Shown: piece after piece, positions 42,160 to 54,385 of the stretch
Layout: every line of letters starts with the position of its first letter
Position numbering within the stretch: position 1 is the stretch's first letter
Source: Armatimonadetes bacterium Uphvl-Ar2
Lineage (GTDB): Bacteria; Armatimonadota; Fimbriimonadia; Fimbriimonadales; Fimbriimonadaceae
Length of the DNA stretch: 64,000 nucleotides
NCBI GenBank assembly: GCA_002162095.1
Contig: CP021424.1
Location: 1,364,001-1,428,000 of the forward strand
Direction of reading: 5' to 3'
The notes under the pieces: generated by a model
What the model was told of the DNA's origin: nothing
What the model saw: only the letters and a program-made list of their open reading frames with translations
The model's database searches: none
Position numbers and translations under genes: made by a program

Positions 42160-42240
42160 ATTACGCGAAGGAGGATCGAAATCGTTTCCTACTGACATGA
42201 GATTTTGTGTCGGGGGCCGTCGGGTCTTTTGCGCATACAG

Positions 42241-42270
42241 TTGCATGAATCTGCAAGATGTGCATATAAT
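42241..42270 (+). promoter_or_regulatory. argR promoter with palindrome (candidate ArgR operator)
   Basis: TTGCAT (42241-42246) and TATAAT (42265-42270) are 18 bases apart and the ATG is 9 bases after TATAAT. A perfect inverted repeat TTGCA-N6-TGCAA (42241-42256) overlays the -35. ArgR binds AT-rich palindromic ARG boxes, so autoregulation of the arginine operon at this site is plausible. Confidence 0.6.
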
Positions 42271-42279
42271 GAGCATAGT

Positions 42280-42717
42280 ATGGCGATTTTATCCGAGCAG
42301 CGCCGCGAAGTGATCCGGCGGCTCCTGGCTTCGGGGCAAGTGAAAGCCCAGGACGATTTGGTGCGGATGCTGAAGGCGCAGGGCTATTCGGCCACGCAGA
42401 GCAGCATTTCGCGCGACCTGCGGAGCCTGGGCGCGGTGCGCCAGAACGGGCGCTACGTGTTGCCCAGCCGCGTGAGTTTGCCCTTGGGTTTAGATCGGTC
42501 GTGCGTGGTCGCGATTTTGCCCGCCGGGCCGCATATGCTGGTGGTGCGCACCACCATTGGGAGCGCCACCCGCCTCGCCCTAGAAGTGGATAATCAAGGC
42601 TGGGAAGAGGTCGTCGGCACCGTGGCCGGGGACGATACGATCTTCATCGCCACCCCCGATGCCGGGGCGCAAACGGTGCTGATGAAGCGCCTTCTGCCCG
42701 GGGTTGACCGTGGCTAA
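42280..42717 (+). CDS. argR: Arginine repressor ArgR
   Basis: 145 residues. The N-terminal winged-helix domain carries SEQRREVIRRLL and ATQSSISRDLRSLG (ArgR DNA recognition). The C-terminal half has the arginine-binding/hexamerisation core RTTIGSATRLALEVD and VGTVAGDDTIFIATPD. It controls arginine biosynthesis in response to arginine. It is the first gene of the arg operon and overlaps argG by 8 bases. It lacks a Shine-Dalgarno, and its -10 is only 9 bases upstream. Confidence 0.93.
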   Translation: MAILSEQRREVIRRLLASGQVKAQDDLVRMLKAQGYSATQSSISRDLRSLGAVRQNGRYVLPSRVSLPLGLDRSCVVAILPAGPHMLVVRTTIGSATRLALEVDNQGWEEVVGTVAGDDTIFIATPDAGAQTVLMKRLLPGVDRG

Positions 42718-43915
42718 GCCCATCATCCTGGCCTACAGCGGCGGGCTCGACACCAGTTGGTGCATCCCGCATCTCATCGGCGAAGGGTGGGAGGTCATCA
42801 CGGTCACGGTGGACGTGGGCGGGATGTCGGATGCCGAGCGCGAAGACCTGGCCGAACGGGCGCAGAAGCTCGGGGCCATCAGCCACCACTTTGTGGATGC
42901 GCGGGCTGCATTTTATGCAACGACCTTGCGATTCTTGATTGCGGGGAACGTGCGCCGAGGCGGCGTGTATCCGCTGTGCGTGGGCGCAGAGCGATTCTTA
43001 CAAGCGCAAATGGTGGCCGAATTTGCCAACCAAGCGGGCGCCTCGGCCATTGGCCACGGCTGCACGGCGGCGGGCAACGATCAGGTGCGATTCGAGACCG
43101 CCCTGCGCGCCCTGGCACCGGGGATGGAGATCGTGGCGCCGATCCGCGACCTCACGCCCTCCCGCTCCCAGCAAGTCGAGGATTTGCAGCGGCTGGGGAT
43201 GCCCGTGCCGAAGCACGGCGCGGCCTATTCCATCAACTCCGGCCTGTGGGGCGTGACGATTGGGGGTACTGAAACCACCACTAGTGACGGCCAAGTGCCG
43301 GAGCATGCGTGGGTGCGCACGCAGGGCGCCTTTGCCAACCCGAAGGCGCCAACCAAGATCACTTTGACCTTTAAGGAGGGCCAGCCCACCCACGTGGACG
43401 GCGTGGCGATGGAGCCGGTGGCGCTGATTGAACATGTGGATGCCCTGGCCGCGGGCTACGGAATTGGGCGCGGGGTGCATCTCGGCGACACGGTACTGGG
43501 TGTGAAGGGGCGCGTGGCGTTCGAGGCCCCCGCCGCCACGGTGCTGATTGAATCGCACCGCGAACTGGAAAAGCTGGTGCTTACCGGCCGCCAGCAAGCA
43601 ATGAAGGATGCGGCCGCCCGAAACTACGGCGACTGGCTGCACGAGGGGCACTTCCTGGACCCGGCCTGCCGCGACATCGAGGCCCTGCTGACCCAAAGCC
43701 AAACCCGCGTGTCTGGTGAGGTGGTGGTGACCTTGCGCACGGGCAGCCTGTTTGTGGAGGGTGTGAGCTCGCCCTATTCGCTGATGGCGGCCAGCGGGAG
43801 CACCTACGGCGAGGCAGCGAAGGACTGGACCCCGACGGATGCGGCGGGCTTCAGCCGCTTGGTGGCCTTGCCGAGCATCTTGGCGGCGCGTGCGGGTGCG
43901 CGAGCCCAGTCATGA
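42710..43915 (+). CDS. argG: Argininosuccinate synthase
   Basis: 401 residues. It joins citrulline and aspartate using ATP. AYSGGLDTSW is the ATP pyrophosphatase motif; GHGCTAAGNDQVRF is the citrulline/aspartate site (TAAGNDQ rather than the usual TGKGNDQ). The segment GLWGVTIGGTETT resembles the Bacteroidetes-type ArgG branch. GTG 42710 (MAKPIILAYSGG) is preferred over TTG 42704. It overlaps argR by 8 bases and the next gene by 4. Confidence 0.93.
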   Translation: MAKPIILAYSGGLDTSWCIPHLIGEGWEVITVTVDVGGMSDAEREDLAERAQKLGAISHHFVDARAAFYATTLRFLIAGNVRRGGVYPLCVGAERFLQAQMVAEFANQAGASAIGHGCTAAGNDQVRFETALRALAPGMEIVAPIRDLTPSRSQQVEDLQRLGMPVPKHGAAYSINSGLWGVTIGGTETTTSDGQVPEHAWVRTQGAFANPKAPTKITLTFKEGQPTHVDGVAMEPVALIEHVDALAAGYGIGRGVHLGDTVLGVKGRVAFEAPAATVLIESHRELEKLVLTGRQQAMKDAAARNYGDWLHEGHFLDPACRDIEALLTQSQTRVSGEVVVTLRTGSLFVEGVSSPYSLMAASGSTYGEAAKDWTPTDAAGFSRLVALPSILAARAGARAQS

Positions 43916-44975
43916 GGCCGCTGCACCTGGACAAGATTGCGAGCGTGACTCGCAACTGCGCCCTGGACCGCGACGTGCGGGTGGGGGATGAATATCCCTG
44001 CCGCGAAGGCGACGTGATTGCGGTGCGGATCCTTTCGCGCAAGGGCACCTACAATCAGTTGGAGTTGGTGAGCGGACGGTTTTCGAACCTGAAGCCCGGC
44101 GACACTGTGGCAGGGGCGCTGGGGCATCGCCGCGCCTTGCAGGGATACGCGGGGCATATCCCGAGCGAAATCAAGACCGGCGACACGCTGCAAATGCTGA
44201 ACATGGGTGGCGTCATTGGGGTGTGCACCTCGTTTTCGCCCGAAGTCGGCCCGCCGTTTGAGTGCGAAGTGCTGGGGCAAGTGTTGTCGTTCCCATTTTT
44301 GGGTCAGCGCGTGGGGGAACCGGCCAATATCGGTCGCCAAGCCGGGACCCTGCGAGAGAAGATTGCCGGGGGGATTCCGCCGGTGCTGGCGATTGTGGGC
44401 ACCTGCATGAACAGCGGCAAAACCGCAGCCTGCGCGAGCTTGATCCAAGAATTTGCGCGGCAGGGCCTGCAGGTGGCGGCGGCCAAGGTGACGGGCGTGA
44501 GCCTGATGCGCGATACCCTGGCCATGGTGGACGCGGGCGCCCGCACGGCCGCGAGCTTTACGGAACTTGGCATTGTGACGACGCAAAGATCGAATGCGGC
44601 TTCCATCACACGGACGCTTTTGGCCCAACTTGCCGAAGGTTCGCCGGACTTGATCGTGTTGGAATTGGGCGATGGCCTGATGGGGGACTACGGCGTGGAC
44701 GCGATCCTGGAGGCCGCCGATATCAAGGCCACCGTGGGGGCGTTGGTGCTGGCGGCGAGCGACCCCGTGGGGCGTGGGGCGGCGTGAAGTTGCTGCAGGA
44801 TCGTTTTGGTTACCCGGTGGCGGCCATCACGGGCCCGTGTACGGACAATAGCGCGGGCGTGGATAACGTGGAGGCCGCGACGGGCTGCGTGGCGCTGAAT
44901 GCGCGCTTGGAATCCGAAGCCCTGGCCGCGCACCTCATGAAGACCCTGGGCTTGGGCGCGGGGGTGGTTTCTTGA
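43912..44975 (+). CDS. P-loop protein of unknown function in the arg operon, frameshifted
   Basis: The first frame ends at 44787 (GALVLAASDPVGRGAA), but adding one G in the run at 44769-44772 joins it to a frame continuing GVKLLQDRFGYPVAAITGP to 44975, giving about 354 residues. An N-terminal beta-rich part (REGDVIAVRIL) is followed near residue 165 by a Walker A motif, GTCMNSGKTA, then a Walker-B-like VLELGDG. It resembles P-loop (DUF1611/BioD-like) proteins, but the role is unknown. Its place between argG and argC, with overlaps on both sides, argues for a step or control function in arginine synthesis. Confidence 0.7.
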
Positions 44976-46015
44976 AGCCCGTGTTTGTGTTCGGGGCTAC
45001 GGGCTACGTGGGCGGTGAATTGCTCCGTTTATTGGCCTTGCACCCGGAGTTTGAGCTCGCCGGGGCGGTGAGTGGTTCGCAGGCGGGGAAGCCGGTGGCG
45101 AGCGTGTTTCCGCACTTGTTGACCGCATATGGTTCGACGTGCTTTGTGGGGGCCGAAGAGGGGCTGCGCGCGGTGGGAGAGGGTTCGGAATCCTTTGTGT
45201 TTCTGGCGCTTCCGCACGGGGAGAGTGCGCGCGTAGCCCGAGAAATCCTTGCCATGGGCAAAAACATCCATTTGGTGGATTTGTCGGCAGATTTCCGGTT
45301 CCAAGAGGCCGTTCAGTACGAGAAGATGCACGGCCACCCGCACCCGACGCCGGAGTTGCTGGGCCAGTTCGTCTTCGGGCACCCGGAGTTATTACCCGAG
45401 GTGAAAACCGGGCCGGTGGCGCACCCGGGCTGTTTCACCACGTCGGTCACGCTGGCCGTCGCCCCGCTCTTGGCGGCGGGTGCGGTGGGGCCGAACGTGC
45501 GCGTAAGCGCCGTCACGGGGAGCACCGGCAGCGGGCGGGAACCCAAAGCCGCCACCCACCACCCCGATCGGCACGGCAATGTGCGGGCTTACAACCCCTT
45601 GCGTCACCGGCACGCCGACGAAATGAGCGCCCTGCTCGGGCGTGTGGCGGGGGCGGAGATTGACGTGCGGTTTGTGCCGCACAGCGGCAACTTCGCGCGG
45701 GGGATCTTGAGCACGATCTTCCTGGATGCGCAGACTTCCGCAAGCGAAGAAGAATTGATCCAAATGGTGAATGAAATGTATGCCCCTCGGGGTGGATTTG
45801 TGACGGCGAGTGCCGCCATGCCTTCCGTCAAGGATGTCGTAGGCACTAACCTAGTGCGCGTGGGGGTGGTGCGGGAGGGCGACCAGATCGTGCTCACTTC
45901 GGCCCTCGATAATCTGACCAAGGGAGCCAGCGGCGGTGCCATGCAATGGATGAACCGCCTGGCGGGCCTGGACGATGCCACGGGGCTGAAATCGCCGGGC
46001 TGGGGGTGGAACTGA
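44972..46015 (+). CDS. argC: N-acyl-gamma-glutamyl-phosphate reductase
   Basis: 347 residues. GATGYVGGEL is the NADP-binding loop; the catalytic Cys is in HPGCFTT; the conserved PHSGNFARGILST segment follows. ArgC reduces N-acyl-glutamyl phosphate to the semialdehyde. The TTG at 44972 overlaps the preceding stop. In this cluster the acyl group may be succinyl rather than acetyl (see argF'). Confidence 0.92.
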   Translation: MKPVFVFGATGYVGGELLRLLALHPEFELAGAVSGSQAGKPVASVFPHLLTAYGSTCFVGAEEGLRAVGEGSESFVFLALPHGESARVAREILAMGKNIHLVDLSADFRFQEAVQYEKMHGHPHPTPELLGQFVFGHPELLPEVKTGPVAHPGCFTTSVTLAVAPLLAAGAVGPNVRVSAVTGSTGSGREPKAATHHPDRHGNVRAYNPLRHRHADEMSALLGRVAGAEIDVRFVPHSGNFARGILSTIFLDAQTSASEEELIQMVNEMYAPRGGFVTASAAMPSVKDVVGTNLVRVGVVREGDQIVLTSALDNLTKGASGGAMQWMNRLAGLDDATGLKSPGWGWN

Positions 46016-47016
46016 TGCGCCGCTTCCTTGACCTGCAACACCTGGACGATGCGACCATCCGCCGCCTCCTTGACCTCGCCCACGAGCTGCAGAAGAGCCC
46101 GATTCGCGAGGACCTGAAGGGCAAGGTGCTGGGATTGCTGTTTATGAACCCCTCCCTGCGCACGTTGGCCTCATTCCAGGCGGGCATGGCGCAACTGGGC
46201 GGGAGTAGCTTCGTTATTCAGCCGGGGCAAGGCAGCTGGTCACTGGAAACCCGCACCGGCGTGACCATGGACGGGGCGCACCCGGAACACATCCGCGAGG
46301 CCATTCCGGTGCTCAGCCAATATTGCGACGCCCTGGGTGTCCGCGCCTTTGCCGGCGGGACAGACCTGAAAGCCGACATGAACGAGCGCTTCCTCAACCT
46401 TTTGGATGAAATCACACCCGGGCCGCTGATCAATCTGGAGAGCGCCGCCAACCACCCCTGCCAGGCCCTGGCCGAGTGGAAGGCGCTAGAAGACTATGAA
46501 ATCCGGGAGGACGCCAAGTTCGTGCTGAGCTGGACCTGGCACCCCAAGGCTCTGGCCCACGCCGTCCCGGCCGCCACCGCCACCATGGCCGCCCGCCGGG
46601 GCATGAACCTGGTGATCTGCCGCCCCGAGGGCTACGACCTCCCCGAAGCCGTAATGAACCGCCTGCATGCCGCCGCCACCCAGGGTGGGGGCACGGTGAA
46701 CGTGACCGACGACCGCGATGCCGCCATGGCGGGGGCACACGTGCTCTACGCCAAGAGCTGGGCCAGCCCGGCGCACTACGGCAACCCCGACGCCGACGCC
46801 CAGGCCAAAGCGGACCTGCGCGATTGGTGCGCGCGCGAATCTTGGTTCGCGTTGGCCCACAAGGATGCCCGCTTCTTCCACTGCTTGCCGCTGCGCCGCA
46901 ACGTCGAGGCGGCCGACGAGATTCTGGATGGCCCGCGCTCGGCCGTCACGACCATTGCCGGTAACCGGCTCCACGTTCAAAAAGCCGTTCTCATGGAGAT
47001 GCTTGCTCATGCCTAA
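46015..47016 (+). CDS. argF': N-acylornithine carbamoyltransferase, N-succinylornithine type predicted
   Basis: 333 residues of the special carbamoyltransferase branch that acts on N-acylornithine (AOTC/SOTC). The carbamoyl-phosphate loop NPSLRTLAS, WTWHPKALAHAV, HCLPLRRNV and NRLHVQKAV are diagnostic. In this family residue 90/92 selects the acyl group: Glu in the Xanthomonas N-acetyl enzyme, Pro in the Bacteroides N-succinyl enzyme. Here the aligned residue in MDGAHPEHI is Pro90, so N-succinyl-L-ornithine is predicted. The neighbouring EAIPVLSQYCD also resembles the Bacteroides form. ATG overlaps the argC stop. Confidence 0.9.
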   Translation: MRRFLDLQHLDDATIRRLLDLAHELQKSPIREDLKGKVLGLLFMNPSLRTLASFQAGMAQLGGSSFVIQPGQGSWSLETRTGVTMDGAHPEHIREAIPVLSQYCDALGVRAFAGGTDLKADMNERFLNLLDEITPGPLINLESAANHPCQALAEWKALEDYEIREDAKFVLSWTWHPKALAHAVPAATATMAARRGMNLVICRPEGYDLPEAVMNRLHAAATQGGGTVNVTDDRDAAMAGAHVLYAKSWASPAHYGNPDADAQAKADLRDWCARESWFALAHKDARFFHCLPLRRNVEAADEILDGPRSAVTTIAGNRLHVQKAVLMEMLAHA

Positions 47017-47925
47017 ATCCGCCCTTGCTTCCAGCCTTCGCAGCGATGCCATCGCCGCCCTGCGCACCGCACTGCCGTACCTCAGCCTCTATCAGGGCAA
47101 AACGTTTGTCGTGAAGGTGGGGGGCGAAGCCTTTGTGGGCGGCCCTCAGGCCGGCAAAGATCTGATCGAGCAGGTGGGCGTGCTGCACCGGCTGGGCATG
47201 CGGGTGGTGTTGGTGCACGGGGGCGGGCCGCAGGCCTCGGCGCTGACGGAAAGCCTGGGCGGCGAGCCGATCAAGATCGAAGGCCGCCGCGTGACGGACC
47301 CCATCGCCCTGCGGGCAACGACTCTGGCCCTGAATGGCGAGGTTGCCACCCACATCGTGGCGCTGGGCCAAGCTCTGCAGATGAGCATGGTGGCGGTGAG
47401 CGGCGTGAGTGCGGGGATGATCCTGGCCCACCAGCGTCCGCCGACCAAGGACCGCCACGGCAACCCCGTGGACTACGGCCTGGTGGGGGATGTGGACCGC
47501 GTGGATGTGAGCTACATTGAGACGATCCTGGCCGCCGGGCATATCCCGGTGGTGAGCCCGCTCGGGGTCTCCAAGTCGGGGCAGGTGCTGAATTTGAATG
47601 CCGACGGCGTGGCGGCAGAGTTGGCCATCGGGCTCGGGGCAGCCAAGATAGTCTTCCTCACCGGGGCGCCGGGCATCCTCCGCGACGCTCAGGATCCGAG
47701 CTCGCTCATCAGCTTTATGGACCTGAAGGGTTTGGCCGATCTGGAGTCCACCGGGGCCGTGCAAGAGGGATGTGGCCGAAGAGTGCCAGCATCCGCCGGG
47801 CGCTGGAAGGCGGCGTGGAGCGCGTGCATGTGGTGGGGCAAAACACCATCGACGGCCTGCTGAAGGAAGTGTTCACCAACGAAGGGAGCGGGACGCTGAT
47901 CGTCCGCGAAGGCTCGCACTCATGA
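47009..47925 (+). CDS. argB: N-acylglutamate kinase, frameshifted in this sequence
   Basis: ArgB phosphorylates N-acetyl- (or N-succinyl-) glutamate. KVGGEAFVGG, VLVHGGGPQASAL and NLNADGVAAELAIGLG are clear. The frame fails at the GGG at 47767-47769; one more G continues it as MWPKSASIRRALEGGVERVHVVG through to the stop at 47925, giving 305 residues, the normal ArgB length. A sequencing deletion is the likeliest cause. The start overlaps argF' and the end overlaps the deacylase gene (ATGA). Confidence 0.87.
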
Positions 47926-49016
47926 TGACGGACGCGGACCTCTTGGCATTCCACCTGGCATTGGTGGCCACGCCCAGCTTGAGCGGTGAAGAGGGGAGAG
48001 CCGCCGAGCTGGTGGTGCAGACCCTGGCGGGCTACGGAGTGGCCGCCGAAATCTGGGATTTGCACACCGTGGTTGCCCGCTCGGGCCAGGGTCCGCGCCT
48101 GCTCTTGAATTCGCACCTGGACACCGTGCCCCCCGGGGCGGGGTGGACCCGCGAGCCCTGGCAGCCGACGGTGGAGGGTGACCAAGTCTTCGGGCTGGGC
48201 AGCAACGACGCCAAGGCGAGCGTGGCAGCATTGGTGGGGGCGTTCCTAGAGATTCACGCGCTGGGCGGGCCGGTAGAGGCGGTGCTGCTGCTGACGACGC
48301 AGGAAGAAACCACCAGCCGGGGCGCGGAGTGGGCGGTGCCGGAGGTACTGGCGAAGTTCGGGGTGCCTGATGGCGGCATTGTGGGGGAGCCCACCGACCA
48401 CACCATTGCCGTGCGGCAAAAGGGGCTGATGGTGCTGGACCTGGTGGCGGAAGGCGACGCCGGCCACGCCGCCCACGCCGAGCGGCTGGGCATGCGCAAC
48501 CCGATTCACACCCTAGCCGAAGATTTGCTGGCCCTGCAGACGCTGGATCGCGGCCCTGAGGACCCCTGGCTGGGCGTGAGCAGCTATCAGCCCACGGTGG
48601 TGCAGGCAGGCGAGGCCCGCAACGCCATCCCTGCCGAGGCCCGCGCCGTGGTGGACGTGCGCAGTGTGCCAACGATGAGCCACGAAGAGTGGCTGGCGCG
48701 CATCCGCTCGATGGTGAAATCTCGGGTGGAGGTGAGGAGCCAGCGGCTGGAACCCTACGCCGTGGATGAGAATCACGCGATTGTGCAGGCGGGGCTGGCC
48801 ACAAATCCCCAGGCCCGGGTGGTGGGGAGCGCGACGATGAGCGACCTGACGTGGATGCGCGGGTTCCCGGCGGTGAAGTGTGGCCCCGGCAAAACTGAAC
48901 GATCTCACCAATTGGATGAATTTGTGTTGCAATCGGAAATCGTGGCGGCGCGGGCGTGGTATGTGCGCTGGGCGGCGGCATTTGCGGGGCAACTCGCGGG
49001 AGGGGAAAAGGGATGA
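47922..49016 (+). CDS. argE': M20-family deacylase, predicted N-acylcitrulline/ornithine deacylase
   Basis: 364 residues of the ArgE/DapE/M20 metallopeptidase family: NSHLDTVPP, GLGSNDAKAS and the TTQEETTSRGAEW glutamate pair. In clusters using N-acylornithine carbamoyltransferase, the M20 enzyme here removes the acyl group from N-acylcitrulline to release citrulline for ArgG. That substrate is inferred from the neighbours. ATG 47922 or 47925 both fit; its stop overlaps argH. Confidence 0.88.
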   Translation: MMTDADLLAFHLALVATPSLSGEEGRAAELVVQTLAGYGVAAEIWDLHTVVARSGQGPRLLLNSHLDTVPPGAGWTREPWQPTVEGDQVFGLGSNDAKASVAALVGAFLEIHALGGPVEAVLLLTTQEETTSRGAEWAVPEVLAKFGVPDGGIVGEPTDHTIAVRQKGLMVLDLVAEGDAGHAAHAERLGMRNPIHTLAEDLLALQTLDRGPEDPWLGVSSYQPTVVQAGEARNAIPAEARAVVDVRSVPTMSHEEWLARIRSMVKSRVEVRSQRLEPYAVDENHAIVQAGLATNPQARVVGSATMSDLTWMRGFPAVKCGPGKTERSHQLDEFVLQSEIVAARAWYVRWAAAFAGQLAGGEKG

Positions 49017-50218
49017 GACTATGGGATAAAGGCGAAAGCACGGACGAACTGGTGTTCACGTTCTGCGTGGGCGAGGATTACATCCTGGATAACCGGCTGG
49101 TGCCCTATGATGTGCAGGCCAGCCAGGCGCACGTGCAGATGTTGGCGGCGCAGGGTTACTTGGCGCCTGCGGATGCCGAAGCGCTTTGTGGGAGCCTGGC
49201 CGAACTGGGGGAAGCCCATGCGCGGGGTGAATGGGTGGTGGAACTAGCCGACGAAGACTGCCACACCGCTCTGGAACGCCACCTTACCGAACGCCTGGGC
49301 GAGGCCGGCAAGCGCGTGCACCTGGGCCGCAGTCGGAACGACCAAGTGCTGACCGCCCTGCGGCTTTACCTCCGCGAAGCCCTCGCCACCGCCGCCGACC
49401 AAGCCGAAGCCGTGGCCGAAGCCCTGGACGAACTGGCCAAAGCCAACCCCAATGTAGAGATGCCTGGCTACACCCACATGCAGCGGGCCATGCCGAGTTC
49501 GGTATCCGAATGGGCGGGGGCGTTTGCCAGCGAAATCCGCGATGACGCTGAGGGGCTCCGGGCCGCCCAGCGCCGGGCCGGCAAAAACCCCCTGGGCACG
49601 GCGGCGGGCTACGGCACCCCGGGCGTGAACCTGGACCGGGAGCAAACCACCCAGGCCCTGGGCTTTGCCGAAACCCAGTGGCCGCACGCGGCCGCGCAGC
49701 TCAGCCGGGGCAAGGCCGAGGCGGAAGCCGTCTTCGCCCTCACCTTGCTGGCCCAGGATTACGGGCGGCTGGCCGCCGATCTGTGCCTGTTTGCCACCAG
49801 CGAGTTCGCGTTTGTGCGGCTGCCGGCGGCGTTCACCACGGGCTCCAGCATCATGCCGCAGAAGCGCAACCCGGACGTTTTTGAGCTTCTGCGCGCCAAG
49901 AGTGTGGGCGTGGCGGCGCAACTGGGCCACATTTTGGCGATCACCAATAAGATGACGAGCGGCTACCACCGGGACCTGCAGGAGATCAAAGCGCCCCTGT
50001 TCCGGGCCTTTGACGAGGTGGCGGGGATGAGCGCGGTGCTGGCCCGGGCCGTCCCGGGAATTGAGTTCGACGCGGTACGTTTGCAGGCGGCAATGGACCC
50101 CGGACTCTACGCCGCCGAGCGGGCCAATCGGTACGTGACGGAGGAGGGCATGTCGTTCCGGGATGCCTACCGGCGGGTGGCGGAAGAGCTTGCCGCCGAG
50201 GCCAAATCCCAGGGATAA
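49013..50218 (+). CDS. argH: Argininosuccinate lyase
   Basis: 401 residues of the fumarase/aspartase superfamily. The signature GSSIMPQKRNPD with the catalytic serine loop, HLGRSRNDQV and MPGYTHMQRA are intact. It cleaves argininosuccinate to arginine and fumarate, the last step of the pathway. The ATG at 49013 follows GAGGGGAAAAGGG and overlaps the deacylase stop. It is the last gene of the arg operon. Confidence 0.94.
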   Translation: MRLWDKGESTDELVFTFCVGEDYILDNRLVPYDVQASQAHVQMLAAQGYLAPADAEALCGSLAELGEAHARGEWVVELADEDCHTALERHLTERLGEAGKRVHLGRSRNDQVLTALRLYLREALATAADQAEAVAEALDELAKANPNVEMPGYTHMQRAMPSSVSEWAGAFASEIRDDAEGLRAAQRRAGKNPLGTAAGYGTPGVNLDREQTTQALGFAETQWPHAAAQLSRGKAEAEAVFALTLLAQDYGRLAADLCLFATSEFAFVRLPAAFTTGSSIMPQKRNPDVFELLRAKSVGVAAQLGHILAITNKMTSGYHRDLQEIKAPLFRAFDEVAGMSAVLARAVPGIEFDAVRLQAAMDPGLYAAERANRYVTEEGMSFRDAYRRVAEELAAEAKSQG

Positions 50219-51673: not shown

Positions 51674-51934
51674 ATGAGGACGACCTATACCGAGCAGTTT
51701 CGGGACGCAATTCGTGCCAAGTTTGAAAGGGCCGATGATATGGGGCTCGACTCTATAACTATCCGCGCAAAAGACCTGCATGCAGCAATCTATGGTGAGA
51801 CTAGCAGTATCAACCGAATGCCAATCTGCTGTTCAGCGATGCTTGACATGAAGCAGGAGTTCGATACGTTCATTTATCGACCACCAAGCGGCAAGGGGCC
51901 ATTGTTGGAAATCGAATACCGATTGCCGCGTTAG
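51674..51934 (+). CDS. Small conserved protein beside the Mrr gene
   Basis: 86 residues, ending YRLPR with an NRMPICCSAM cysteine pair in the middle. It resembles a family of short conserved proteins I recall from accessory loci, of unknown function. ATG 51674 is chosen because the ATG codon begins a compact, family-like start. It is convergent with the Mrr-type gene and their stop codons overlap (TTAG at 51931-51934). Confidence 0.55.
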   Translation: MRTTYTEQFRDAIRAKFERADDMGLDSITIRAKDLHAAIYGETSSINRMPICCSAMLDMKQEFDTFIYRPPSGKGPLLEIEYRLPR

Positions 51935-52788
51935 TCTTCTCGAAATAGATCAAAGAACTCGTGGTCTACGTCGTAAACAGTTCTGGGCTTTACGCCGATT
52001 TGCTTACTTTCCATGAGGGCAATGAGTCGATCCTTATCCACGAGTTCGATGGTGGGGACGCCATCGCGAACTGCCTCACGTTGGGCGTCCGAAGTGAATA
52101 GTCCTGTTGTGAGAAATATCCCCAAGTCGGTCCTGCCGCTCATCGCGCCGCGAAAGTTGCGGATTTCACCGGAGTTGACCGAACCTTGATATCGCTTGCA
52201 CTGAAAGAGCACTTGGAAGGACACAAGCTCATTGACCTTGAGAACTCCATGACCATCAATGCCCCCGTCCCCGGAGCGTCCGGTAACCACGACTTCGGCA
52301 AACCCGAGCTCACGCAGGATTCGCTGACAAAGTCGCTCAAAGCCCCGGGGAGGCAACTCTCTAATCGTTTCGATCAAGCTTAGGCTTTGCTGAGTTGCAT
52401 CGCCATCGTGCTGCTCGGCATCGTCCTCGGGCGGTTCGGATTCGTCCGGTGCTTGCCGTCCGACGATCTTGTCGTGTCGGCCTATCTTTCGCGCCTGCTC
52501 CAGCGATAGATGGGTTTTCCAGCCGAGTTCCGTGAGTCGCCAAATGCCACGGGTCGATCCATCGATGAGTCCAGCGGCTCTCAAGTTGTTTCTGGCCCAG
52601 GCAACTTCGTTTTCGGCAGCATTCACGCCCGATTTCAGTTCACGATCCCTCTCTGCTGTGCCTCCTACCAAAAGATCCGCAACTTTTCGAGCAATTTCGC
52701 GGGCAGGAGCTTCGCCCCCTGCTTCCCGCAGCGTGTCAAGTAGCGGTCCGTATGCGCGGACACATCGGTCCTTTGATTCCTTGGCCAT
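51931..52788 (-). CDS. Mrr-type restriction endonuclease
   Basis: 285 residues. An N-terminal winged-helix-like Mrr_N region (ARNNLRAAGLIDGSTRGIWRLTELG) is followed by a PD-(D/E)XK nuclease domain of the Mrr type: GFERLCQRIL, GRSGDGGIDG and the FQCKRYQG catalytic segment. Such enzymes cut modified or foreign DNA. No methyltransferase partner is present, so a type IV-like activity is likely. A TATTCT box lies 11 bases upstream (52800-52805, minus strand). Confidence 0.82.
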   Translation of the reverse strand: MAKESKDRCVRAYGPLLDTLREAGGEAPAREIARKVADLLVGGTAERDRELKSGVNAAENEVAWARNNLRAAGLIDGSTRGIWRLTELGWKTHLSLEQARKIGRHDKIVGRQAPDESEPPEDDAEQHDGDATQQSLSLIETIRELPPRGFERLCQRILRELGFAEVVVTGRSGDGGIDGHGVLKVNELVSFQVLFQCKRYQGSVNSGEIRNFRGAMSGRTDLGIFLTTGLFTSDAQREAVRDGVPTIELVDKDRLIALMESKQIGVKPRTVYDVDHEFFDLFRED

Positions 52789-52937
52789 TTCCTAGGTGGA
52801 GAATAGCACCTTCGGTGCAAGCGCCGACATTCCCTTACGGGGTGATTGCTCAAGGCACGAACTGGTAACAGGGAATGCCTCCGATGTTGTGGATTGGTAC
52901 TGAAATTTATGGCAAGCTTCAGGAAAAGCAGGTTCTC

Positions 52938-53395
52938 ATGAGCAACCACGAAGACAAACTCGAAGACGAAATGACCGAAGCCGAGGAGGAGCAGTGGTGC
53001 GAGGAGCGCCGTGCTGAGGTGGTGGACTACCTGGCGCGGACGGGCATCCGGCACGGCCAGATTGGCGAGTGGCCGGCCTGGCACCTGCCGCCCTACGTCT
53101 CCCTGTGGGCGATTGAGAGCGGCGAGAACCCGGGCTGGGTGGGCTGGTGGGTGATCTGCGGCGACCTGCCGACAGACTATGTTTCGGCCCAGACGATCAA
53201 GCATCCCCGCGAGGCGATGCGCGCCCTCGCCGACCGCTGGGCGCCCGCCGCCGAGCGCATGGCCCGGGGGAGGCGCCCGAGGACTTCTCCCTCGGCCAAC
53301 CCGAAGATTGGCCGACCCTCGCTCCCCTCCTGGCCAGCCGCGCCGCCCTCCTTCAAGACTTCGCGGCGGACGACGCGATGTGGGAAGGGTATTGA
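52938..53395 (+). CDS. DUF4826 family protein, frameshifted in this sequence
   Basis: About 152 residues once one G is added in the five-G run at 53266-53270. The first frame runs through PYVSLWAIES, GWVGWWVICGDLPTDYVS and AERMARG, and the second continues GEAPEDFSLGQPEDWP to DAMWEGY. These match DUF4826, a family of unknown function in accessory loci. ATG 52938 (MSNHEDK) follows AGGAAAAGCAGG. The upstream 52789-52937 gap holds a small hairpin (52806-52818) and nothing else clear. Confidence 0.68.
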
Positions 53396-53439
53396 ACTCT
53401 TCAAAGATTGCCAGGAAACGGTTTCACAATCGTCAGTGG

Positions 53440-53445
53440 TAGTAT
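53440..53445 (+). promoter_or_regulatory. -10-like box (TAGTAT) for the 53453 gene
   Basis: TAGTAT lies 7 bases before the ATG at 53453, consistent with a leaderless start. No obvious -35 is present. Confidence 0.35.
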
Positions 53446-53452
53446 TTGATAT

Positions 53453-54385
53453 ATGAACATTGAGGCCACGCTTGCGCAGTTAGCCGCGCGTAGACCCGTC
53501 TTTCACTCCGAATCTGATTTCCAGCACGAGTTGACGTGGGCATTGAGAGAAACAACGGGAGCCGACATGAGACTAGAAGTTCCGATGCCTGGATTTTCGG
53601 GCCGGGCTTCCCTAGATATCCTTCTCTCCCACGCCGGAACGCGCCTTGGAATTGAACTCAAGTATCCCAAGCAAGCCCTCAATCGCGTGGTGAACTCGGA
53701 GATGTTTAAGTTGTCAAGCTCCGTGGCTCGGGACATCATTCGCCATGACATCTGCAAAGACATTATGCGGCTCGAACGCGCCATTGAGCAGAAGTTCATA
53801 GACAAGGGCTACTTGATTGTCGTGACGAATGATTCGAGCTTTTGGAAACCGGGGCAGCGGGATGATGTCATTGATGCGGATTTTCATGTTCATGATGGGC
53901 GTAGTCTTGAAGGCACACTGTGCTGGTCAGAGCGTGCGGGGGCAGGCACGACGAAGAAACGGGACACGCCGCTCGTGTTCGCGGGGAGTTACTCGTTAGA
54001 ATGGGGCCCCTATTCCAAGATTGAGGGTGAGCGATACGGGGAATTCCGGTCGTTGATCGTGGAAGTGAATACGCCGGCATCACCCGAGGAAGTTCGGGTG
54101 GCCAACCGCCCATCTGCGCCATCAAGCCGGGCGTCTCGCCCGGTCACCTCTAAGCGTGAAGGTCTCAATCGACTCCAGGAGTTCTTCCGCAACTGCGAAG
54201 TGGATGAGCTGACGATGACATTCGCCGAGTTGGAATCCATCCGTGGCCCGCTCCCATCTTCGGCCCGGAATCACAACGCGTGGTGGTATGGGGTGGCCAG
54301 CCATCCTGATGCGGTGTGGGAGCACGAGGGCTACCGTGCTTCGCCGAAGCTAGCGGAGCAGCGAGTGATATTCCGAAAGAGGTAG
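53453..54385 (+). CDS. PD-(D/E)XK-like nuclease fused to DUF7662
   Basis: 310 residues. Residues ~1-170 look like a restriction-endonuclease fold: FSGRASLDILL then GTRLGIELKYPK, an acidic-ELK catalytic pair. The C-terminal ~75 residues (LNRLQEFFRNC, LTMTFAELESIRG.LP, ARNHNAWWYG, VIFRKR) match the DUF7662 pattern often found in accessory and mobile regions. A joined nuclease-like and DUF7662 architecture suggests a role in foreign-DNA handling, which is inference. No partner methylase is present. Confidence 0.6.
   Translation: MNIEATLAQLAARRPVFHSESDFQHELTWALRETTGADMRLEVPMPGFSGRASLDILLSHAGTRLGIELKYPKQALNRVVNSEMFKLSSSVARDIIRHDICKDIMRLERAIEQKFIDKGYLIVVTNDSSFWKPGQRDDVIDADFHVHDGRSLEGTLCWSERAGAGTTKKRDTPLVFAGSYSLEWGPYSKIEGERYGEFRSLIVEVNTPASPEEVRVANRPSAPSSRASRPVTSKREGLNRLQEFFRNCEVDELTMTFAELESIRGPLPSSARNHNAWWYGVASHPDAVWEHEGYRASPKLAEQRVIFRKR

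Follow-up and report, generated by a model that had tools for sequence, protein, structure and literature searches.

The N-acyl route from glutamate to arginine comprises eight enzymes. In the variant of this route found in Bacteroidetes, which proceeds through N-succinyl intermediates, the first step has been assigned to a GNAT protein, BT3761/ArgA2, by GapMind (PMC7311316) and by a gut-microbiome reconstruction (PMC9026213), and argA2 is colocalised with argF3 in 23 genomes (PMC9026213). The excerpts of a review of N-acetylglutamate synthases (NAGS) that we used name ArgJ alongside GNAT-type and further enzymes and include no P-loop protein (PMC4490483). Here we describe an arginine operon of Armatimonadetes bacterium Uphvl-Ar2 (assembly GCA_002162095.1), located within a stretch of 64,000 nucleotides of contig CP021424.1 (positions 1,364,001 to 1,428,000), hereafter the window. 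Reading of the open reading frames (ORFs) and matching them to families confirmed an operon at 42280-50218 on the + strand with the order argR-argG-X-argC-argF'-argB-argE'-argH, in which X is an uncharacterised gene. We propose that X represents an undescribed family and that it carries out an established step of an established type of pathway in a new way. With a probability of roughly two in three, it encodes a non-GNAT, P-loop N-acylglutamate synthase that supplies the otherwise missing first step of an N-acylornithine pathway, most likely one via N-succinyl intermediates.

The original prediction for this locus, made from the DNA letters, described a Bacteroidetes-style operon with the order argG-argC-argF'-argB-argE'-argH. 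Family scans recovered each of these genes at the coordinates given for it, and gene X between argG and argC had been missed. The cluster is thus not purely of the Bacteroidetes style, as the operon contains no GNAT gene and has the unrelated gene X in its place.

In many genomes the operons containing X encode seven recognisable pathway enzymes in addition to X. The gaps within these operons are too small for an additional gene, and neither a GNAT gene nor a carrier gene was found inside them. Since seven of the eight enzymes are assigned and no space remains for another gene, X is left for the N-acylglutamate synthase step. The window operon lacks argD, which most other X operons carry; a role of X as a substitute for argD was rejected, because the two genes co-occur in most of those operons.

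The first X loci were recovered from GTDB genomes using the X sequence alone as the query, with arg genes not used, and all 18 lie in arg clusters. Further loci came from scanning genomes of the window's phylum, and of the phylum of L009, a Planctomycetota metagenome-assembled genome (MAG) labelled Planctomycetia, with a profile of X, and their surroundings were fetched. Directly upstream of X is argG in 44 of 48 loci, and directly downstream is argC in 40 of 48. The commonest full order, argR-argG-X-argC-argD-argF'-argB-argE'-argH, is present in 15 loci, and in nine more without a detected argR. X-bearing genomes belong to Planctomycetota, Armatimonadota, Acidobacteriota and Myxococcota. At two loci (L171, L173) X is found ahead of argC even though argG and argH there belong to another type. 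X very likely functions in arginine synthesis.

Two Acidobacteriota carry X beside argB and argC and lack ArgJ (the order in L006 is argG-argD-argB-X-argC-argH), and no N-acyl-type carbamoyltransferase was found in these two genomes. The matches in the Acidobacteriota genome G155 are canonical ornithine carbamoyltransferases (OTCs; one with 553 bits, above the cut-off) and a YgeW. Because Acidobacteriota have X without ArgF', X appears to travel with argB and argC, that is with the acylglutamate steps, and not with ArgF'. This observation bears on the idea that X supplies carbamoyl phosphate for ArgF', or couples its delivery, a role for which the amide-forming P-loop enzymes CTP synthase and dethiobiotin synthetase, which share the fold class of X, would offer a precedent. 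Given the placement of X next to argB and argC where ArgF' is missing, and given that step 1 would then be left without an operon gene, we consider such a role very improbable. An X-carrying Acidobacteriota genome also encodes ornithine-carbamoyltransferase-like proteins (L132, L137) in which HDLPAVRG replaces the usual HCLP motif.

Covalent attachment of the small protein LysW to glutamate is an established alternative to protection by acylation (PMC4490483), and X might accordingly be imagined to make carrier-bound glutamate. X has no match to an ATP-grasp ligase family, the operon has no carrier gene, and ArgB and ArgE' score best with the argB model and the ArgE/DapE models, respectively, rather than with LysW-pathway models, so we give this idea almost no credence.

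The original prediction had suggested looking for canonical argF and argJ, and a whole-genome search found neither. ArgJ (PF01960) is absent from the window genome, with positive controls detected, and the ArgF' query returned a single match in the 2.63 Mb genome. Canonical OTCs of relatives are picked up by the same query, which lends weight to the lack of a canonical argF here. Within the bacterial family of the window, ArgJ was found in none of 11 genomes with X and in 11 of 15 without it; among 195 Planctomycetota genomes the corresponding counts are 0/47 and 101/148, a 33-bit partial hit in one X-bearing genome not being scored as ArgJ. The source genomes of the first X loci likewise lack ArgJ (0/18). 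Exact tests of the exclusion gave p = 2e-4 for the family and p = 4e-19 for Planctomycetota, values that ignore shared ancestry and are hence descriptive. ArgJ requires N-acetylornithine and is chemically incompatible with ArgF', and therefore the exclusion by itself is no proof of the role of X. Two near-complete members of the family (G037, G130) have no match to X, ArgJ or a carbamoyltransferase and are possible arginine auxotrophs.

The first step might instead be performed by an ArgA2-type GNAT encoded elsewhere in the genome, as part of an ordinary Bacteroidetes-style succinyl pathway in which X would be an accessory or regulatory P-loop ATPase/GTPase. Bacteroidetes do perform this step by a GNAT (PMC7311316, PMC9026213), and the nearest named sequence relatives of X include the adaptor GTPase MobB. 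There are 16 GNAT hits in the window genome; one of them (L083) weakly resembles amino-acid N-acetyltransferase models, scoring 42 bits where the cut-off is 180. None of the hits, as read, has an amino-acid-kinase (ArgA-like) domain, and none of the GNATs scanned exceeds the cut-offs of glutamate acetyltransferases, no search having been made with Bacteroidetes ArgA2 as the query. The NAT family PF04768 returned no hit, the controls included, and so carries no information here. No GNAT gene fits in the X operons, whereas in Bacteroidetes argA2 often colocalises with arg genes. Moreover, an accessory protein would not be expected to keep the slot between argG and argC across several phyla, or to persist after exchange of argG, argH and argF. 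We regard this arrangement as unlikely.

As predicted, the carbamoyltransferase belongs to the N-acylornithine branch: ArgF' is of the knotted N-acylornithine type (NCBIfam NF003384, 354.9 bits against a cut-off of 288), and in the alignment it keeps the 80's-loop Trp and the equivalents of Glu144 and Lys252. N-acetylornithine carbamoyltransferase (AOTCase) is distinguished from N-succinylornithine carbamoyltransferase (SOTCase) by Glu92, Asn185 and Lys302, the latter enzyme having A/S/P/V/Q, P and V/I/E at these positions (PMC4581275), and A/S/P/V/Q at position 92 is regarded as the mark of N-succinylornithine enzymes (PMC4581275, PMC7311316). Pro90 in MDGAHPEHI, the residue on which the predicted succinyl specificity was based, does align to the column of Glu92 of the Xanthomonas campestris AOTCase. 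Pro, Ala and Glu occupy positions 92, 185 and 302 of the window enzyme, a set that differs from that of AOTCase throughout; positions 92 and 302 are SOTCase-like, and Ala185 corresponds neither to AOTCase nor to the Pro of SOTCase. The predicted SOTCase-type specificity is thus backed by Pro92 and Glu302, and not by Ala185 or by overall similarity, which is higher to X. campestris AOTCase (~242 bits) than to Bacteroides fragilis SOTCase (~176 bits). The top match in the PDB is 3l04, an AOTCase chain with Pro at position 92. Among 45 ArgF' proteins of X operons, position 92 is occupied by A (21), V (9), Q (6), T (4), P (3), I (1) or S (1) and never by Glu; 39 of them have Pro at position 185 and 13 keep Lys302. 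This broader set is stronger evidence than the window protein taken singly.

These residues are relevant to a pathway through N-acetyl intermediates, in which X would be an N-acetylglutamate synthase and ArgF' an AOTCase despite Pro92. Such a pathway would agree with the closer overall similarity of ArgF' to the Xanthomonas enzyme, with Ala185 instead of Pro in the window enzyme, with the retention of Lys302 in some relatives, and with the acetyltransferase annotation of DgcN, a possible fold relative of X. Glu92, however, is lost in 45 of 45 proteins and Pro185 is present in most, and substitutions at position 92 switch the specificity to succinylornithine, according to work cited in PMC4581275 and PMC7311316. 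We rate the N-acetyl pathway as rather unlikely. Judged by its residues, the window ArgF' probably works like a SOTCase despite failing one SOTCase feature, and the product of X would then probably be N-succinylglutamate. The prediction that arginine is made through N-succinyl intermediates outside Bacteroidetes is therefore partly supported at the sequence level: the host is not a member of Bacteroidetes, and a succinyl-type pathway is likely, though not proven.

In a tree of ArgF' with the Xanthomonas AOTCase and canonical OTCs as the only references, AOTCase falls inside the broad ArgF' family and outside the 21-row clade of the window. A contig binned as a Methanoregulaceae archaeon (L013) encodes an ArgF' nearly identical to that of a member of Fimbriimonadaceae (L019), with short tree branches, and given this near-identity the archaeal occurrence was set aside as a probable binning error or contamination. 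In three Fimbriimonadaceae without X (L046, L050, L053), a single frame of ~720-750 codons encodes an ArgD-type aminotransferase followed by a fused ornithine carbamoyltransferase.

X has no match above cut-off among the curated families of Pfam and NCBIfam, including no PF01960 and no GNAT family match, and no paper mentioning it was found in the open-licence literature. Its Walker A motif is GTCMNSGKT (typically GT(C/S)M(N/D)(S/A)GKT in the family), and K170, K192, D201, E251 and D254 are invariant in 63 of 63 X sequences. The retention of Walker A with GKT, where DUF1611 has GKM, leans towards nucleotide binding by X. An AlphaFold2 model built with 17 orthologues (predicted local distance difference test, pLDDT, 90; predicted template modelling score, pTM, 0.89) consists of an N-terminal part rich in beta structure, followed by a P-loop domain at the C-terminal end. 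Structural matches of the latter domain are CTP synthase (Z 17.6), dethiobiotin synthetase (Z 16.6), the DUF1611 structures 2g0t (Z 17.3) and 2obn (Z 16.9), and 7xrj (Z 15.4), which was deposited as the N-acetyltransferase DgcN. As modelled, the C-terminal domain is a SIMIBI-class P-loop fold; with structural scores this close to one another, the fold restricts the class and not the reaction. Modelled alone, the N-terminal domain reached a pLDDT of 75, with one of five models being good, and this weak model has no clear structural match.

Assignment of X to DUF1611/DgcN was rejected, as PF07755 gives 13.3 bits for X of the relative L002 and 21.4 bits for X of G025 against a cut-off of 25. The profile alignment between X and DUF1611 is limited to the P-loop and the same genome encodes a separate, true DUF1611-family protein, so X is not filed under this family. 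The latter gene (L073, G000:C1:1293672-1294268) lies outside the window; it scores 224.6 bits, above the Pfam cut-off, and 222 bits with the NCBIfam DgcN model, below the cut-off of that model. Assignment to MobB was likewise rejected, the score of 24 bits being under both curated cut-offs and the context of X being that of arginine genes throughout. A divergent paralogue of X (~30% identity; L174:7985-9079 in G002) and weaker relatives (L175-L177) are located outside arg clusters, mostly in genomes with ArgJ; the L174 paralogue adjoins a PGA_cap/M36-peptidase protein and ABC transporters.

We infer the reaction of X, its acyl group and its donor from features that were computed, namely gene order, conservation, ArgJ exclusion, the residues at positions 92, 185 and 302, and fold class. 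In the proposed pathway X would acylate the alpha-amino group of L-glutamate, and ArgB, ArgC and ArgD would convert the resulting N-acylglutamate to N-acylornithine. ArgF' would carbamoylate N-acylornithine, ArgE' would take off the acyl group to give citrulline, and ArgG and ArgH would complete arginine, with ArgR as the presumed repressor of the operon. Dethiobiotin synthetase and CTP synthase activate a carboxylate in an ATP-dependent manner, and X may act in the same way; alternatively, it may depend on acyl-CoA, as annotated for DgcN, which belongs to a D-glutamate pathway (PMC12363236). By analogy with the former enzymes, X could be the founder of a new family of ATP-dependent P-loop ligases using free acid, ATP and glutamate, in which case several phyla would start arginine synthesis without an acyl-CoA acetyltransferase; we offer this as a tentative and somewhat doubtful extension.

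Several observations weigh against X as the first enzyme of a succinyl-type pathway. The P-loop match is unspecific, with CTP synthase and dethiobiotin synthetase scoring level with DUF1611 structures, and hhalign aligns X to DUF1611 over 36 P-loop columns only, with a probability of 48%. The assignment of the acyl group depends on one to three residues. The exclusion of ArgJ would partly follow from ArgF' alone, and the genomes are not independent. A GNAT of the genome or a Bacteroidetes-type ArgA2 could perform step 1. Lastly, both X and argB are frameshifted in the assembly of the window itself.

The frameshifts are of one type: X falls into two ORFs because a G-rich run (44760-44800) is one G short, and argB has the same kind of lesion (47760-47790). 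Both genes are whole in the ~98%-identical relative L002 (argB 98.7% identity), which makes a sequencing or assembly error the likely cause. Real gene decay was judged unlikely, given lone missing Gs in G-rich runs, the intact L002 genes and the unbroken state of the other operon genes. Such frameshifts could make automatic annotation miss X and argB. In the X-bearing members of the four phyla examined, step 1 is without a recognisable enzyme, and genome-based prediction would tend to call the pathway incomplete. If our assignment is true, X fills this recurrent gap and widens, by one fold, the small set of solutions to this classic step of biosynthesis, and the succinyl pathway would be a trait of several phyla rather than a peculiarity of Bacteroidetes.

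Coordinates of the operon genes and of the upstream region are collected in Table 1. Every gene of the operon overlaps its neighbour by a few bases (argG and X, for instance, at 43912-43915, and argE' and argH at 49013-49016), which fits a single translationally coupled operon. The original prediction had ArgG resembling the Bacteroidetes branch as well; the top NCBIfam match of ArgG is PRK04527 with 324 bits, far under the cut-off of that model. TATGCGCAT-type motifs resembling the repeats at 42215-42279 are present upstream of the operon in several relatives and are candidate ArgR operators.

Table 1. Features of the arginine operon, in window coordinates.
Feature	Position	Strand	Basis
argR, arginine repressor, first gene of the operon	42280-42717	+	Pfam Arg_repressor and Arg_repressor_C above cut-offs; TIGR01529 101 bits, below cut-off
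argG, argininosuccinate synthase	42704-43915	+	TIGR00032 294 bits, above cut-off
X, uncharacterised P-loop protein, proposed N-acylglutamate (N-succinylglutamate) synthase	43912-44975	+	354 residues across one missing G near 44775
argC, N-acyl-gamma-glutamyl-phosphate reductase	44972-46015	+	TIGR01850 299 bits, above cut-off
argF', N-acylornithine carbamoyltransferase	46015-47016	+	NF003384 above cut-off; Pro/Ala/Glu at AOTCase positions 92/185/302
argB, N-acylglutamate kinase	47009-47925	+	TIGR00761 162 bits, above cut-off; 305 residues across one missing G near 47770
argE', M20-family deacylase, proposed N-acylcitrulline deacylase	47922-49016	+	Pfam Peptidase_M20 and M20_dimer above cut-off; ArgE/DapE models under theirs
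argH, argininosuccinate lyase	49013-50218	+	TIGR00838 303 bits, above cut-off
Candidate ArgR operator/promoter region	42215-42279	+	TGCAT/TGCGCAT repeats upstream of argR, seen by eye

The host genome is a single contig that is 99.66% complete. Among named relatives the closest is a MAG carrying the label Chthonomonas sp. UBA2785 (proteins 98% identical); other near relatives are labelled Fimbriimonadaceae, which places the organism in Armatimonadota. An Rfam scan of the window gave no match. Downstream of the operon, at 51931-54385, the window has genes that look like those of a restriction-endonuclease-type protein and other accessory proteins, and GC content is lower (0.585-0.61 from 52 kb on), possibly indicating a mobile or defence region.

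Compared with the described systems, the locus shares with Bacteroidetes (B. fragilis SOTCase, BT3717; BT3761/ArgA2; BT3549) an N-acylornithine carbamoyltransferase without Glu92, an M20-type deacylase, the absence of ArgJ and an arg cluster. It differs in that we assign step 1 to the P-loop protein X instead of a GNAT, in that ArgF' is nearer overall to AOTCase, and in that the operon is headed by ArgR and found in Armatimonadota, Planctomycetota, Acidobacteriota and Myxococcota. With the AOTCase pathway of Xanthomonas (X. campestris) it has in common a knotted carbamoyltransferase of the same broad family (39% identical to that of the window) and a carbamoylation that precedes deacylation, whereas Glu92, Asn185 and Lys302 there are replaced by Pro, Ala and Glu here, and the bifunctional NAGS/kinase of Xanthomonas (PMC4490483) was not found in the window genome. 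X resembles DUF1611/DgcN (2g0t, 2obn, 7xrj) in its SIMIBI-type P-loop domain (Z 15.4-17.3) and in its loop of the form GT-x-M-x-x-GK; X is set apart by GKT instead of GKM, by its beta-rich N-terminal domain and by a score under the Pfam cut-off. CTP synthase and dethiobiotin synthetase have the same C-terminal fold class as X (Z 16.6-17.6), with ~13-19% identity in the aligned part and another genomic context. The known N-acetylglutamate synthases (ArgA, ArgJ, S-NAGS, ArgO, C-NAGS, ArgA2) catalyse the same reaction as that proposed for X. The described types are GNAT-related or ArgJ, except for C-NAGS, which the 2015 review calls unrelated to the others, whereas X is a P-loop protein.

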